Source: a virus
Strand: one strand, 5' to 3'
IMG/VR virus record: IMGVR_UViG_3300000651_000005
Location: 1 to 32,570 of that record
DNA length: 32,570 nucleotides
How positions within the stretch are numbered: the first letter of the stretch is position 1; each line of letters opens with the position of its first letter. The notes beneath the pieces are model-generated. The model was not told the DNA's origin. It did not search any database and saw only the letters and a program-made list of their open reading frames with translations. Of this stretch, positions 2,914-30,000 are shown piece after piece. The position numbers and the translations under genes were made by a program.

Positions 2914-3056
2914 GTGATATAGAAAAGCAAGTTTTATTGAAGGCACGCGAATATGCAGATGTTCTAGGTTATTTTATGAATGGTGAGGTTGATTTAGAAA
3001 CATATCACAAAGCGGTAATGGAATTGTTGAGAGCAGCAGTTAAAATGGCAGAATAA
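2910..3056 (+). CDS. Small helical protein, unknown function
   Basis: A 48-residue ORF (begins MSDIEKQVLLKAREYAD, ends AAVKMAE) whose ATG overlaps the preceding stop codon (ATGA). The composition is mostly helix-forming, with two likely amphipathic helices, residues 1-22 and 31-47. It is followed after eight bases by a convincing terminator, closing this two-gene unit. Function is unknown; it may partner the acidic protein encoded just before it. Confidence 0.65.
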   Translation: MSDIEKQVLLKAREYADVLGYFMNGEVDLETYHKAVMELLRAAVKMAE

Positions 3057-3064
3057 TACAAATC

Positions 3065-3100
3065 GAGAGGCCAGAACGTATCTGGCCTCTCAGTTTGTTT
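3065..3100 (+). terminator. Rho-independent terminator
   Basis: GAGAGGCCAG (3065-3074) and CTGGCCTCTC (3082-3091) form a perfect 10-bp stem with a seven-base loop, followed by AGTTTGTTT. It directly follows the stop at 3056 and is the clearest intrinsic terminator in the window. It separates the left module from the replication genes. Confidence 0.85.
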
Positions 3101-3150
3101 CATGGGAAGGAAACGTTCAACAGAAAGAACAAGTGTCCGGCTCATTCTTA

Positions 3151-3213: not shown

Positions 3214-3492
3214 CTATATGTCTAATATTCTTATTTGAATTTGTTGCCAATTATCAACCAGCTTCTGGCCCTTGTCTGTTAGATGAACACTATCTTTATT
3301 GATATATTGAAAATCAATTCCTGCTTCACGATAAAAATTGAATATTGATTTAACCTTTTCTCCAAACAGTTCATCAAGATTATTGTTTGATAATGGAATA
3401 TTGTTGGTGTGACACCAATCAATTGTGCATAGCACCCACAGCATTGTAAGTTTATCAATAACTGTTACATTTGAATTCTGTGATCTTATCAT
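3214..3492 (-). CDS. Leftward 92-residue protein, unknown
   Basis: Reads leftward from ATG at 3492 to TAG at 3214. The sequence is protein-like, with a hydrophobic helix near residues 13-26 (KLTMLWVLCTIDWC), an Asn-rich loop, and a C-terminal HLTDKGQKLVDNWQQ (about 70-84) that looks like the last helix and wing of a small winged-helix domain. That suggests a transcription regulator, but weakly. It lies alone between two rightward units and is head-to-head with the primase promoter region, the position often held by a repressor or regulator. No clear ribosome site precedes the ATG. Confidence 0.55.
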   Translation of the reverse strand: MIRSQNSNVTVIDKLTMLWVLCTIDWCHTNNIPLSNNNLDELFGEKVKSIFNFYREAGIDFQYINKDSVHLTDKGQKLVDNWQQIQIRILDI

Positions 3493-3629: not shown

Positions 3630-4607
3630 ATGGCGCCCGCTATATACGACGATAGCGAAGAAAAAGCTAGTCCTAATTATAACACAGTTTGTGTTGCTTT
3701 AGCTCGTAATGGTAAAAGATTATGCAAGATAGTTTCTCCTGGCGGAGAAATCCCCTTTGATAATGCTTATTACTACAAATTCTTCAATGAACAAATAGAG
3801 TCATTACAAGATTTATTTCAATTAGTTCAGTATCTATTACATCGACCACAATGTTGTTTGATACGTGGTGTTGCTAAGGATGACAGTGTTCAAAGACAAA
3901 GACGATTGTTTCAAGGCGATTCAACTATTATTGAACAAGAACAGAACTGGTTTGCGTTAGATATTGATGGATTTAGCGAATCAACAGGAGATTTAAAGAT
4001 TGATCATCATAGAGTTCTCCTGGCGCTCAATATGAATGTGGAATCATTCGCAATACCTAGTGCTGGTTATTTGCGAAAACCAGGCATACATATCAGAATA
4101 TTTATGTGGAATCTATCTAAGGTAACATGCTCAGAATTGAAGAAGTATTTCACCAGATATAAAGATGTAGTAGATTTAGCACTCTTTCATCCTATCCAGC
4201 CTATCTATACTGCGCGGCCTTTATTTAATGGATGCTGCGATCCTTGTAATAAGTTATGGTCATGGCATATTAGTGATAATCAATTCGTTAATGTGCCAAA
4301 AATATACACAGATAGGTCTGGTAGACATGAAGAATTGTATACCAGAAAACAAGCTGATAGGTTTTTGAAAACTTTTCTTCGGAAAGTATTTCAAGACAGC
4401 GTTGCTTCTGGCCATAGGCATAGCTGGTTATTCGGAGTATCAGTAGCATTAGGCAAATGGATCGAACAGGACTTATTAGATGAAGAAGAAACAGTTGAAT
4501 TATTGTATCTAGCCACAGCAACATGGAAGGGTGACAGAAAGAAAGATATGCAAACTATACTTGACGGAATCAAACGGGGAAAACTGGCGATGGAGGGTGT
4601 AGTATGA
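3630..4607 (+). CDS. Archaeo-eukaryotic-type DNA primase
   Basis: A 325-residue protein, probably the phage primase that lays RNA primers for replication. The start at 3630 follows a GGGGAGGAAA site. Residues 106-114 (NWFALDIDG) carry the DxD metal-binding motif expected of AEP primases. Residues 144-158 (SAGYLRKPGIHIRIF) match the following Ser/Lys/His motif region, and TARPLF near 195 is also typical. The C-terminal 90 residues (HRHSWLFGVSVALGKWIE) resemble the helical domain linking primase to helicase in D5/VapE systems. The gene overlaps the helicase gene by four bases (ATGA), so the two are co-translated; elsewhere these are often one fused protein. Leu130-Leu131-Ala132 is encoded by CTC CTG GCG, a copy of the dispersed octamer in an AT-rich gene. 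Confidence 0.8.
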   Translation: MAPAIYDDSEEKASPNYNTVCVALARNGKRLCKIVSPGGEIPFDNAYYYKFFNEQIESLQDLFQLVQYLLHRPQCCLIRGVAKDDSVQRQRRLFQGDSTIIEQEQNWFALDIDGFSESTGDLKIDHHRVLLALNMNVESFAIPSAGYLRKPGIHIRIFMWNLSKVTCSELKKYFTRYKDVVDLALFHPIQPIYTARPLFNGCCDPCNKLWSWHISDNQFVNVPKIYTDRSGRHEELYTRKQADRFLKTFLRKVFQDSVASGHRHSWLFGVSVALGKWIEQDLLDEEETVELLYLATATWKGDRKKDMQTILDGIKRGKLAMEGVV

Positions 4608-6154
4608 TTATACAAGAGATACTTCATGAATTGAATTCATTTGCTGATTCATCTGCCAAGAGGATGTATCTTGAAGAACATATAAATGATATTATGGATG
4701 GAATATTCGTCCTTAGTGATACTGATAAACCATTTTATATTGAAAAGCTTTGTAATGCATTCGATGGAACAGGATCAAAAGCAGCAATTAAAAAATATAT
4801 TGATGCTGCATTAGAACATAGGGAAAAACAAGAAGCAAAGAATAGAATTGCCGATTTTTCTAGTGTTGATTACGATATTCTTGATATGAGTCCCTCTGGT
4901 ATGTTATTCCCTACACAAGATAACTTTTACAATATTCTCCTGGCGGCCAATCGCGTAAAGATGATTTGGGAGGATATGTCAGCAAATATATATTATACAA
5001 ATATTGATTGGGATACACCTTGGCCTACATTTAAAATACCAGGAGTTCCTGGTGAATATCATAGAAATTCTGAATATCATACTACAGAATTAAAACGCAA
5101 ATTAAATAAAAATGGATTTCCTTCTGAATCAAGATGGTTTTCGTTGAAAGAAGCTCATCAAAATGTAGCACAGAAAAATAGAGTTGATTTTTATCAGCTT
5201 TATATGAGAAATATTGAAGAAGAAAATCCAGATGATGGAATTGACAGATTTACAATAGACAATTGTTTCGCAGTTAAATATTTGGGTGCTCCAAAAGAAC
5301 AATGGAGTGCTATATGGTCACGCGTATTAATGATGTCTCTTGTTTGGCGCTGTTTTTCTCCTGGCTGTCCACAACGATATTACTTCACTATTGAAGGTGA
5401 GCAAAATATTGGCAAGACACAATTTTGTAGAGCATTGGTTCCTAATTTCTGGTATACAAGTGCAGCATTATCAGCAAGAGATGACATTATTGAATTTTAT
5501 CGTGGGACTTATGATAAGGCTGTAATTGAGTTTGCTGAACTTGGTGGAACTGATAGAGCATCAAAAAATTTATTCAAGAGAGTTGTTACTGAAACTCATT
5601 CAACATTTAGACGAATGAGAGCAGATGATGTAGTTGATTATCCAAAGAGAAATATTATCATTTTAACAACGAATGAAACGGAATTTCTTGGAAGAGACGA
5701 AAGTGGTGACACTAGAGCAGTGACATTGAGATCTGATTTAAGACAAAATGAATTTATGCTCCTGGCGGAATTTGCCAAAGAATATCCAAAAATACTTGCT
5801 CAAGCTATAAGAATGTATGATGCTGGAATTAGTTGTTATTTGAATCTAGAAGAATTTGATTTACAGAAGGCTCAAATTGAGAAAAGAGATGTGGTATTTA
5901 CATCAGAAGAATATGATATTATCTGTGGTTATTTCTTGGACAACAATGTATTAGATATAGCCAAACAACAAGGTGCTTATCTTGATCCTATTTATGATTA
6001 TGCAATGGGCGAGTGGAGTATGACCAAACCAGAAATAATGAAGCGTGCACGAGCCTTCAGTGCTGCTTTAAAGAAATATGGATTTAGTAAACATGACAAT
6101 AAAGCAGTGCAGATTGATGGTAAGCCCAGAAAAGTTTGGTATTGGAGAGATTGA
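4604..6154 (+). CDS. VapE-family superfamily 3-like replicative helicase
   Basis: A 516-residue ATPase predicted to unwind DNA at the phage origin together with the primase. The Walker A motif GEQNIGKT is at 265-272, the Walker B-like VIEFAELGG at 307-315, a sensor strand NIIILTTNE at 350-358, and a GDTRAVTL arginine motif near 368. This is the pattern of the virulence-associated protein E (PF05272) family. Residues 1-220 are a helical N-terminal region that in relatives couples to the primase. The start overlaps the primase stop by four bases. The gene is AT-rich, yet Leu112-Leu113-Ala114 and Leu386-Leu387-Ala388 both use CTC CTG GCG, and residues near 252 use TCT CCT GGC, three copies of the octamer. 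A repeat-rich region follows. Confidence 0.9.
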   Translation: MIIQEILHELNSFADSSAKRMYLEEHINDIMDGIFVLSDTDKPFYIEKLCNAFDGTGSKAAIKKYIDAALEHREKQEAKNRIADFSSVDYDILDMSPSGMLFPTQDNFYNILLAANRVKMIWEDMSANIYYTNIDWDTPWPTFKIPGVPGEYHRNSEYHTTELKRKLNKNGFPSESRWFSLKEAHQNVAQKNRVDFYQLYMRNIEEENPDDGIDRFTIDNCFAVKYLGAPKEQWSAIWSRVLMMSLVWRCFSPGCPQRYYFTIEGEQNIGKTQFCRALVPNFWYTSAALSARDDIIEFYRGTYDKAVIEFAELGGTDRASKNLFKRVVTETHSTFRRMRADDVVDYPKRNIIILTTNETEFLGRDESGDTRAVTLRSDLRQNEFMLLAEFAKEYPKILAQAIRMYDAGISCYLNLEEFDLQKAQIEKRDVVFTSEEYDIICGYFLDNNVLDIAKQQGAYLDPIYDYAMGEWSMTKPEIMKRARAFSAALKKYGFSKHDNKAVQIDGKPRKVWYWRD

Positions 6155-6159
6155 ATGAA

Positions 6160-6241
6160 CTTACAGTTAGGAACGGTTAGGTTATGAATTCTGAAATCCT
6201 TGTATATAAAGGATTAATTAGTTCTTATAACCAAACTAACC
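6160..6241. repeat. Extended imperfect dyad, possible origin or operator
   Basis: The gap after the helicase holds GTTAGGTTATGAA (from about 6178), mirrored by TTCTTATAACC...CTAACCTAA (about 6222-6243). At the centre is a perfect stem AATCCTT (6195-6201) / AAGGATT (6209-6215). CAGTTA and CGGTTA strings lead into it (6164, 6174). The whole is AT-rich and lies between the replicative helicase and nuclease genes. The dispersed octamer changes strand between 5766 and 6397, around this place. A replication origin is the preferred inference; an operator controlling the next gene is the alternative. Confidence 0.5.
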
Positions 6242-6279
6242 TAATAACTTGTTAAAATAGGAGAGGGGAGATTGACACT

Positions 6280-6462
6280 ATGATCGTAACAAACAAACAA
6301 CCGTCTAAAATCAGATACGTTTTTTCCCTTATAGTCATAGGGAAAAAATCGGTTATTCGGTTACGGTTAGTTAGGAATTTGATAAGAGAGAGGCGCGCCA
6401 GGAGAAAAATCATTAATAATTTGGTTGACAATGCCATGACAAGAGACGGCCCAGGAGCATGA
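6280..6462 (+). CDS. Tiny basic protein, unknown function
   Basis: A 60-residue ORF. ATG at 6280 follows GGAGAGGGGAG at a good distance, and the stop overlaps the ATG of the nuclease gene (ATGA), so it behaves like a coupled phage gene. The product is very basic, with SVIRLRLVRNLIRERRARRKIINN at about residues 29-51 forming a probable amphipathic, nucleic-acid-binding helix. No family is recognised. It may instead be a non-functional reading frame across DNA kept for its repeats: a 10-bp inverted repeat and three CGGTTA copies lie inside it. Confidence 0.5.
   Translation: MIVTNKQPSKIRYVFSLIVIGKKSVIRLRLVRNLIRERRARRKIINNLVDNAMTRDGPGA
6320..6369. repeat. Inverted repeat TTTTTTCCCT/AGGGAAAAAA plus CGGTTA direct repeats
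   Basis: TTTTTTCCCT (6320-6329) and AGGGAAAAAA (6339-6348) form a perfect 10-bp stem around nine bases. Two bases later CGGTTA occurs at 6350, 6358 and 6364, the last two in direct tandem. Other CGGTTA copies are at 6174 and 3511. The run lies inside the tiny basic ORF. It is not a normal terminator, because the T run is on the 5' arm. It is likely a protein-binding or origin element. Confidence 0.6.
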
Positions 6463-6890
6463 TTGAGCAACAATTACACTTGGAGTTTGATAAAACATTC
6501 CATGCTTACGCATTATGGAAACCGAATAACAGAGCATCAGGTTGGCCTGATCGAGCAATTCAAATAGGCTCATCAATTGTTTGGTGTGAATTGAAGATTA
6601 CACATATGAGAAAAGATGGCAGAATATTATTGAGTAATTTTGAAAGAGAACAAGCAGCATTTATGTATAAATGGTCAAGGAATGGCGGTTCTTGTTTTAT
6701 TCTATTTGCAGTATTGGACAAGGCCGGCCAGGAGAAATTAGGATATGGCATCGTTCGCCCTTTATTCTTTTCTGATTGGTTGATGGTAAGACAAAAATTG
6801 TATTCTTTAATTGACTTAGATTTATTTGCTGATAACATGAAAGAGGTGCTAGAATGGTTCAAACATACTTACGGGAAGCTCGCGATTTAG
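6459..6890 (+). CDS. VRR-NUC-like PD-(D/E)XK nuclease
   Basis: A 143-residue protein. GWPDRAIQIG at 28-37 followed by IVWCELK at 40-46 matches the GxPD...ExK active site of VRR-NUC and related restriction-fold nucleases, with metal-binding Asp31 and Glu44 and catalytic Lys46. RILLSNFEREQAAFMYKW (about 55-72) corresponds to the following helix with the conserved Gln. Such small phage nucleases act on branched DNA, in Holliday-junction or fork processing, and are usually placed with helicase and primase genes, as here. ATG overlaps the preceding stop by four bases; an upstream CCCAGGAG supplies a ribosome site but at very short spacing. The length is somewhat greater than the minimal domain of about 100 residues. 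Confidence 0.8.
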   Translation: MIEQQLHLEFDKTFHAYALWKPNNRASGWPDRAIQIGSSIVWCELKITHMRKDGRILLSNFEREQAAFMYKWSRNGGSCFILFAVLDKAGQEKLGYGIVRPLFFSDWLMVRQKLYSLIDLDLFADNMKEVLEWFKHTYGKLAI

Positions 6891-8230: not shown

Positions 8231-8551
8231 ATTCCTGAAGGTTTTGATCCTCATAATGAACTAGCTCGCATTAATACATTGCGAGAACTCACGTTTGCTT
8301 GTCGGCAACGTGTTCCTGAGACATTGCGTCAAATCGACAATATGCTTGTCGATCCTAATTTGATGCCAAGTGATAGGATCAGATTAATCGAGATGGTTTG
8401 GAACCGTGGTTATGGCAAACCACGTCAAACAGTATATATTGCTGATGACTCTACTGGTCCAAATCAAGGGTCCAGTAGAGTCAGAGTATATTTGCCTGAT
8501 AATAACCGCACCAATACTCCAACTAAGATTATTGATGCGGAGTCCAAATAA
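8231..8551 (+). CDS. terS: Probable terminase small subunit, apparent AUU start
   Basis: The frame opens after a TGA at about 8214-8216 and ends one base inside the terL ATG (TAATG). A TTG at 8279 is possible, but the better-placed start is ATT at 8231: AGGAG at 8218-8222 sits eight bases upstream, and the added residues (IPEGFDPHNELARINTLRELT) read as real protein. This gives 106 residues. There are no ATG, GTG or TTG codons between the ribosome site and 8279. The protein is helical with a basic RIRLIEMVWNRGYGKP segment (about 54-69), as in terminase small subunits that bind DNA before packaging. Assignment rests largely on position directly before terL. An inverted repeat at 8447-8482 lies within it. 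Confidence 0.65.
   Translation: MPEGFDPHNELARINTLRELTFACRQRVPETLRQIDNMLVDPNLMPSDRIRLIEMVWNRGYGKPRQTVYIADDSTGPNQGSSRVRVYLPDNNRTNTPTKIIDAESK
8447..8482. repeat. 11-bp perfect inverted repeat within terS
   Basis: GACTCTACTGG (8447-8457) and CCAGTAGAGTC (8472-8482) enclose a 14-base loop, about 70 bases before the terL start. A smaller GTGGTT/AACCAC inverted repeat lies about 40 bases upstream. Packaging initiation (pac/cos) sites are often inside or beside terS, so this is a candidate recognition site. It could alternatively act as an mRNA hairpin affecting terL translation. Confidence 0.5.
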
Positions 8552-27004: not shown

Positions 27005-30000
27005 ATGAGCAATATTGACTATACTAAGCCTGTATATGGTAATCCCACCACTCAAAGTGTAAGGGATAATTTTCATCTTGCTTATAACGAGATAACAGAC
27101 CTACAAAGTAAGACAAGTCTAGCGCCATATCTGCCAATCGCTGGCGGAACGATGAATGGTGCTATTACTTTACCAGGCGATCCTGTTTCTCCACTTCAAG
27201 TAGCAACAAAAAGATATGTAGACAATTTGGCTTTTGGAGTAACTGGAAATATTCCTGAAGCTCCAATTGATGGTTACTTCTATGCTCGTGGTCATATCAC
27301 TGCTGGTATGACATGGAGCAAGGATCCAATTTTCAATAGTGCTATATTTGGTGTATCTCCACAGAATGTTTTGACTATTGCTCCTGGCGCTGCTGCTGCT
27401 AGTATTATTAGTTTTGCTCAAAGTGGAACTGGTGGTTATCAATTTGGTGGAGATATTCTGCGCCTTACTGGCACTGGTGCAATTGGTCTCCCGCGCGGCA
27501 CCACTGCCCAACGACCCACAGCAACAGCAGGTGATCTTCGTTATAATACAACTTCTGCTTCTTTGGAATTTGTTGAGCCTGGTTTAACTGCTCTTCCAGT
27601 TCCTGTGCGTATTGCACACGCTGCGCATACAGGCGGATTGCGTGGCTTTGATGTTACTGGATTTGGAACGTCTACTTCTGTTATTGCACTTACTGATGCC
27701 TATTCTGGTACTACTGGAAGAACTGGTGGTGCCATATTTGATTGGGATGGTAACAGCCTTCTATTTGATGATGGCACTACTGCCCTAAGACCCAACTCTA
27801 TTACATCTGGTAATCCAGGACGTTGGATTAAACGAGTTTCTGCTGGAACGATTGCAGTAGAAGATGCTGGTGCTGTAGCTGACTATGTATTTCCAACGAG
27901 TGGTGTTGGTGAAGTTCTCGGCACAGATAATACTGCTGCATTGTCTGGTGCTTGCGGAGCAGTAGGTGCAAGTGGCACTATACATCGTGGTGGCACAGCG
28001 CAATTGCGCGCTGGTGCTTATCGTGTTACTGGCACTCTTGTTATGCCTCCTGGATCGCGGTTGCGTGGTATTCAAGGTTTGCCATATGCATTGAGCACTA
28101 CAACAAGATTTAATACTGGCTCTATCATCGTGCTCGACGGGCCAGGAGCACGTATTCAAATGAATCAGGGTGCTGTTCTTGAGAATGTTCGCATTATGCG
28201 ACGTGGTATGGATCTTGCACCAACCTCTACAGACACTAACGCATATTGGGCCGCGCGTCTTGATGAGGTTTGTGCAGGTCAACAATGGAAGCCTGCTACT
28301 GCATATTCCGTTGGTGCTGTTGTAATATCTTACAATCAAGTTTATAAATGTGATACTGCTGGAACATCTGGTGCTGCTACTTCTGGCGGGCCGCGCAGCC
28401 AACGTACAACAGCAAACTCCATTACTGATGGATCTGTTCGTTGGCATTGGATTAATGAATATACTTGGTATCGTTCCAAGCCTGTGCAAGTTAACGCACT
28501 GATGTGTTCTGGTAATAATGTTTATCAATGTGATACTGCTGGTGTTACTTCATCTACAGGCCAGGGGCCTTCCGCTACCACTACAGCTGCTAATAGCGTT
28601 ATTGATGGCACTGTCAGATGGCATTGGATTGGCCAATTTGGTATGGCAATTACCACACTAGATTATTGTAGTCTTGATACTGTTGCTATTGTTGGATTTG
28701 CCAAAGGTATTGGTTCTCTTACTGGTATGGGTATGCGTAACGTTTGGGTCGATGCGATCCATTGTGTTGATGTATGTAATTCTGGTGACCTTACTGTTAT
28801 GGAGCGTGTATTGTGTCGCGCACAATATATTGCTACTGGAGATATTCGGCGCAGACCAGGATATGGTATCTATTTGCATGATCGTATGGATGGTATTACA
28901 TTAACAACATGTGGTGTGCAATTATGGGCAATTGCTTATTGTCTTTCAAATGTTTGGCCTACGATGAGGGATTGTGGAGCGGAAACTGACAGCACAACGA
29001 ATGGCGATACTTGTATTCAATTACTTGGAACTATTACTGGTGGTCAGTTTGTAAATTGTTATGTGCTGGGTTGTATTGGTTGGCATGTAGCGGCGACAGA
29101 TTATAATCATAATCCTAATACTGTTGCTGGTTGGGTAGTAGGAACAAGCCAGCTTGAGATTATTGGAGGTTGGTGGGGAACCTATCCTGCTAGCTCAGGT
29201 GTTGGTTCTGGTATGTGGGGCAATCCTACTATCTTTTATATTGAAGGCCAGGCTCGCGTCTCTGTGCGTGGTGGCATCGTTAATCAGCAGGGCCAGATAG
29301 TAATTCAAGCCCCTGCTACAACTGATACCCAGAATTATTTTTGGACGTTCAGAGACATGACTATTTTGTCTGCGAACATCCTTACATATGCTGATTTGGC
29401 AACTATTGATTCTTCAGTAGCACCATATATTCATTTTTCAAATATATGGCATGCAGAACGCAATAGAATACTTGTTGCTCCTGATCATAACGATACCATT
29501 GCTGTAGTTTCTTCGCCAGTATCAGCTGGAACTTATGCCATTCCGAATGGAACCAAATGGGTCCATATTGATAATTCTTCAACACTTGCATCTTATACTT
29601 TGACTTTGCCTGCTGTGCCTATTGATCAGCAGATTGTAGAAATTACTGCTGATTCTGCTGTAACAGCATTGACTCTTTCTCCATCAGCAGGACAAGCACT
29701 TGGGCCTAGTGTTCCATCTACAATTTCTGCTGGCGGGACATTGCGGGTTCGGTGGTTTGCTTTTGAGAACCAATGGAAATATACTGGTGAATCGAATGGG
29801 CCTTATTTGCCGCTTATTGGTGGTACAGTTACTGGAGCTACAACGTTTAATGGGGCTACAACAGTTAATAATCAATTTGTAGTATCAACCAATACAGGTC
29901 CAGCTTTTAGATTGAGTGGCGCTGCTGGCGGTTATCGCACAATACGATTGGATACAGCTAATTCGCCTAGATTTAGTTTGGGTCTAGATAACGTTGCTGA

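Follow-up and report, generated by a model that had tools for sequence, protein, structure and literature searches.

Does the non-coding DNA that separates a helicase gene from a nuclease gene in this virus record serve as the replication origin of the phage? A sequence-only reading had proposed as much, on the grounds that the gap is rich in repeats and lies where a frequent octamer changes strand. The window, that is, the whole stretch of 32,570 bases analysed here, bears most of its genes beyond about 1.7 kb on the + strand and includes terminase, portal, head and tape-measure genes of its own, the relatives of this phage being 52–53 kb long. As judged from the comparison with these relatives, positions 6155–6458 very probably constitute a bidirectional replication origin of the PICI-type iteron kind, situated in a true phage.

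The gap and its neighbours

The genes and elements concerned are the following:

3630–4607, + strand: putative archaeo-eukaryotic-type primase (PHROG 3712 'replication origin binding', E 5.7e-8)
4604–6154, + strand: VapE-type helicase, proposed initiator (PF05272, E 2.8e-32)
5759–5766, + strand: last left-hand octamer CTCCTGGC before the switch
6155–6458, no strand: helicase–nuclease gap, 304 bases, non-coding, proposed replication origin
6164–6185, + strand: left iteron arm of the dyad, CAGTTAGGAACGGTTAGGTTAT
6186–6225, no strand: dyad interior, with the 7-bp stem AATCCTT/AAGGATT
6226–6241, − strand: right, inverted iteron arm, TATAACCAAACTAACC
6250–6348, no strand: AT-rich spacer with the 10-bp inverted repeat TTTTTTCCCT/AGGGAAAAAA at its end, proposed unwinding element
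6350–6374, + strand: three direct CGGTTA iterons (6350, 6358, 6364), running on into GTTAGTTAGG
6397–6404, − strand: first octamer to the right of the switch, reading GCCAGGAG on the + strand and preceding the nuclease gene
6459–6890, + strand: nuclease-like protein, with weak RecU and PHROG 2165 matches

In the primase, the motifs LDID and PGIHIRIF can be read by eye, and searches of Pfam and PDB with this protein gave no significant match. To the right of the nuclease gene follow the terminase, portal and tape-measure genes. A 60-aa open reading frame at 6280–6462 was considered as a gene and rejected, as it is without counterpart in any frame of the related locus L009. Elsewhere in the window, a 23-nt inverted repeat with a 5-nt loop and a GC-rich centre (3053–3103) is possibly a terminator, and a repeated element of the CTAGAAAGGAACAATGG type, present at 626–648 and also at 258–3944 of L009, which holds seven copies of CCATTGTTCC, resembles the ribosome-binding site and start codon of small minus-strand genes.

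Every element that had been described between the helicase and nuclease genes is indeed present, namely the imperfect dyad at about 6164–6241 (GGTTAG at 6175, CTAACC at 6236), the perfect 7-bp stem (6195–6201 and 6209–6215), the 10-bp inverted repeat (6320–6329 and 6339–6348) and the CGGTTA copies, three of them within the direct array and further ones at 6174 and 3511. To these can be added a copy at 29929 and a single reverse copy at 8503, both of which had gone unmentioned. The description of the gap as a dense repeat zone thus holds as regards its elements, whereas the clustering of CGGTTA, taken alone, is not significant in the window (shuffle P about 0.10). Shuffled versions of the gap seldom contain a perfect 10-bp inverted repeat (P 0.002); the repeat as such is not conserved in the relatives, whereas the iterons and the dyad are. 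At the position of the dyad interior, most relatives carry a core, GTAAGTCGYTGAAAT, of which the window has a degenerate form that retains CTGAAATC, and most relatives also have a T-rich stretch at the position of the AT-rich spacer. An Rfam search found no match, and the idea that the conserved core holds an IHF site was rejected, since 15 matches against 7.3 expected are only modestly above shuffles.

Iterons and helicase across the relatives

Relatives were gathered by helicase and primase searches, which led to one close relative and then to the family, and more were added by octamer scans. Together they amount to about 20 related uncultured phages from soil and plant roots, with a common gene order of primase, VapE-type helicase, non-coding gap, nuclease and terminase. 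After removal of near duplicates, 18 gaps were compared, and two further loci (L241 and L244) came later as a partly independent check. Most gaps follow one plan, in which inverted iterons around the short core are followed by the T-rich stretch and then by direct iterons, after which there is usually a GCCAGGAG octamer ahead of the nuclease start. To the right within the gaps of L035, L190 and L241, a second copy of the core-like sequence (ATCAAAGACTTACG and similar) is present in inverted orientation. Named phages yielded no DNA match to either the gap or the replication region, a helicase profile run against a genome collection found no relative, and a scan of the collection for octamer palindromes brought up mainly genomes of high GC content in which the octamer was not in strong excess.

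The iteron itself is specific to the phage, being CGGTTAG in the window and CGGTAAC, CGGTAAT, CGGTAGA, GCGTTAT, AAGTAAC, GTGTAAG or others elsewhere, and the consensus, roughly NNGTNRN, was picked by eye from k-mer tables. Repetition of 6-mers exceeded that of dinucleotide shuffles (P≤0.02) in 15 of the 18 gaps, the window, L025 and L027 being those without significance, as were L241 and L244. The iterons of the dyad half match those of the direct half better within a phage (0.439) than between phages (0.307), a difference reached in 0 of 100,000 permutations by a test that ignores phage relatedness and that is made conservative by the iterons shared among close relatives. This matching of the two halves within phages speaks against an explanation by common ancestry alone and in favour of a single binding factor in each phage.

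The pair L024 and L028 points to where such a factor may be encoded. These two loci are 96% identical in the left flank and 97% in the right flank, and differ across a single block that comprises the last third of the primase gene, the helicase gene and the iterons, with identity returning just ahead of the octamer and the nuclease start; L200 and L009 have the same kind of right-hand boundary. On the sequences of this pair, the primase C-terminus, the helicase and the iterons are exchanged as one block, so that the specificity factor should lie within it, in either the helicase or the C-terminus of the primase.

The best match of the helicase is SaPI PriRep1 (PDB 7pds), whether sequence (E 5.8e-30) or fold (E 3.2e-15) is compared, with about 16% identity over the fold match. 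Its residues 460–514 are predicted to form a helix-helix-helix-strand-strand arrangement that is winged-helix-like (AF2 mean pLDDT 83). When protein identities were compared with iteron similarity, the C-terminal domain of the helicase tracked it best, albeit weakly (Mantel test, Spearman 0.35, P 0.018), and the identities of primase, nuclease and terminase showed no significant relation to it. In L009, L025 and L027, the C-terminal domains of the helicase are 82–91% identical and the whole proteins 60–71%, as if the end of the helicase gene moved with the adjacent putative origin.

Octamer polarity, GC skew and alternative readings

The octamer CTCCTGGC occurs 28 times in the window against 0.43 expected, with nine copies on the + strand and two on the − strand to the left of the gap, and three and 14, respectively, to the right. 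The strand changes between 5759 and 6397, an interval that includes the repeat zone, as the sequence-only reading had placed it. Within 3 kb of the gap, the 18 phages pooled have 49 + and two − copies on the left and two + and 40 − copies on the right, figures that overstate independence, as do the other pooled counts, since octamer positions are partly common by descent. The pooled maximum-likelihood change point is 0, the centre of the gap (support interval −100 to +50 bp), and when close opposite pairs are left out, the counts within 10 kb are 103 + and 12 − on the left against eight and 69 on the right. In all 19 informative phages, those with octamers on both sides, L241 and L244 among them, the nearest octamer on the left is + and the nearest on the right is −.

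When two change points were left free in four contigs of 52–53 kb treated as circles (circularity being supported in one by overlapping ends that are 94–96% identical, and assumed in the other three), the first fell at the gap and the second, opposite switch at 0.53, 0.55, 0.60 and 0.53 of the genome, as is expected under bidirectional theta replication. The bias is strongest near the gap and mixed near 0.45–0.60 of the genome. In the G001 relative, the sole genome in which both were measured, the far switch adjoins a point where the genes change direction; it is thus partly confounded and constitutes weaker evidence.

One 52-kb relative holds 55 copies of the octamer, and nearly all contigs with a strong octamer excess that were retrieved by a scan for octamer pairs bear genes of this phage family; the excess is absent from the stretches read of two phages with related terminases. 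Close opposite pairs, CTCCTGGC followed by GCCAGGAG within 40 bp, were seen 25 times in the loci of the family, 22 of them in the same order (in the window at 1336/1344 and 2650/2671), and account for many of the exceptions to the polarity. A near variant, CTTCTGGC, is also frequent (for instance at 3262, 13972 and 21031 of the window), and lacks the polarity of the octamer.

GC skew had been named as a check on the proposed origin, with a minimum elsewhere, for example at the repeats of 1.46–1.55 kb, to count against it, and the outcome was adverse: the cumulative minimum lies at 1358, near those repeats and 4.9 kb to the left of the gap. In every relative the minimum is likewise to the left of the gap, generally by 4–9 kb where the loci reach that far, and it adjoins a change of gene direction. 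Since the minimum tracks gene direction in the relatives, the skew test measures gene direction and not the origin, and GC skew was rejected as an origin marker.

The same observations bear on another reading, in which the gap would be an operator or promoter whose iterons bind a regulator of the nuclease–terminase operon, with the real origin at the 1.46–1.55 kb repeat cluster. Repeats placed ahead of an operon do fit an operator, and the skew minimum stands next to the repeats at 1458–1550, which consist of GTATATAC along with ATTGATTG. Against this, GTATATAC is dispersed in the relatives, a single locus having as many as 16 copies, and is missing from L035; no octamer switch occurs at these repeats; the skew minimum is well to the left of the gap in loci of sufficient length; and the gap iterons travel with the helicase gene. 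We therefore consider this reading improbable. The 1.46–1.55 kb repeats were rejected as an origin, GTATATAC being a dispersed element, and its distribution over many sites suggests the operator of a regulator.

It has also to be considered whether the gap could be a packaging site (cos or pac), the octamer taking its polarity from recombination or from the direction of packaging. The gap is about 2 kb upstream of the terminase in the window, and the action of Chi in lambda is oriented relative to cos, both of which speak for this possibility. A packaging site, however, predicts a single polarity around the genome rather than two switches half a genome apart, and the iterons have been exchanged together with the helicase while the terminase side stayed 97% identical, which leaves this explanation with very little probability. 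That the octamer merely follows transcription or coding constraint, and is uninformative on replication, agrees with the position of the far switch in the G001 relative, yet is equally improbable. The genes that flank the gap share one direction, whereas the octamer goes from sense on their left side to antisense on their right, and octamers occur in all three reading frames as well as between genes, so that the switch at the gap does not stem from transcription or protein sequence; nor is it produced by composition, given that GC skew keeps its positive sign on crossing the gap, both in the window and in most relatives.

Proposed mechanism and known counterparts

The placement of a replication origin at the gap, together with the octamer switch, is thus supported by phage-specific iterons repeated in both of its halves, and further by the cassette exchange, the octamer reversal that every informative phage has there, the opposite switch and the relatedness of the helicase to PriRep. 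In the mechanism that we propose, the VapE-type helicase would bind the phage-specific iterons, CGGTTA(G) in the window, by means of its C-terminal winged-helix domain, and would assemble on the iterons of both the inverted dyad and the direct array. It would then melt the AT-rich stretch between them and load as opposed hexamers, the upstream primase would start synthesis, and two forks would leave the gap and meet about half a genome away. If forks do leave in both directions, both arms would carry GCCAGGAG on the leading strand, which is the lagging-strand template, and its orientation would accordingly reverse at the origin.

An arrangement of this kind has precedents. In PICIs, the origin directly follows rep on its 3' side and consists of an AT-rich region between two sets of iterons (PMC6092414), and for the opposed repeats at SaPI and PICI origins it has been proposed that they load a pair of helicase hexamers in head-to-head orientation (PMC9894130, where Ubeda 2012 is cited for the SaPIbov1 origin). 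The gap resembles these origins in its position immediately 3' of a helicase/initiator gene with the primase upstream, in its two iteron sets around an AT-rich stretch, in iterons that differ between elements, and in a helicase related to SaPI Rep/PriRep. In contrast, it belongs not to a satellite but to a phage, about 52 kb in size, that has terminase, portal and tail genes of its own; one of the two iteron sets forms an inverted dyad with a conserved core in its middle; the octamer changes polarity at the gap; and the primase has a gene to itself, unlike in SaPI PriRep1 (7pds). A known kind of origin would thereby be placed in a new setting, a family of complete phages, which at the same time offers a natural series of iteron variants with their own helicases, useful for working out a recognition code.

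With regard to the octamer, the main candidate roles are those of a priming site, a fork-restart site or a Chi-like site, the last of which would imply recognition by RecBCD or AddAB of the host and enrichment in the host chromosome. It may be, although we regard this as a tentative and rather unlikely proposition, that GCCAGGAG is a phage-encoded fork signal which the phage primase or helicase reads, for instance to prime the lagging strand or to restart forks, and which occurs about once per kb on the lagging-strand template in both replichores and reverses at the origin; if true, it would be a replichore-polar signal of a virus and not of its host. Assuming that forks leave the gap, the octamer is similar to AIMS, KOPS and Chi in that it prefers the leading strand and reverses at origin and terminus. 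It differs from these motifs of bacterial chromosomes in being seen only in this phage family, and from AIMS, whose bias rises toward the terminus (PMC5993296), in that its own bias is strongest near the putative origin and fades toward the terminus. For these uncultured phages, it could serve as an alignment-free marker of origin and terminus.

In the satellite phage P4, the alpha protein is a helicase-primase that recognises short ori/crr repeats at the origin, its protein architecture being different. Other phages with VapE genes were also inspected. In five named VapE phages (L222–L226), repeat arrays stand directly 3' of the VapE gene, right after the helicase stop codon, namely in APSE-1, 2638A, Pasteurella PMP and Acidovorax phage ACF1 (each with 0 of 200 shuffles) and in Brevibacillus phage Emery (P 0.015); next to the array, 2638A, Pasteurella PMP and Emery have a gene for a VRR-NUC protein or an annotated endonuclease. 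These five differ from the family of the window in a helicase identity of only about 25–29%, in having other iterons and in lacking the octamer in the stretches read. No significant iterons follow the helicase in the VapE phages Haddon and phi1605. The PICI-type layout thus seems to be common among VapE phages, and no published account of it was found in the literature searched. More distant VapE contigs (L214, L215, L216 and L209, about 22–28% identity) have, by eye, repeats of the GGTCAG, TGTCAG or GGTCC type after the helicase stop.
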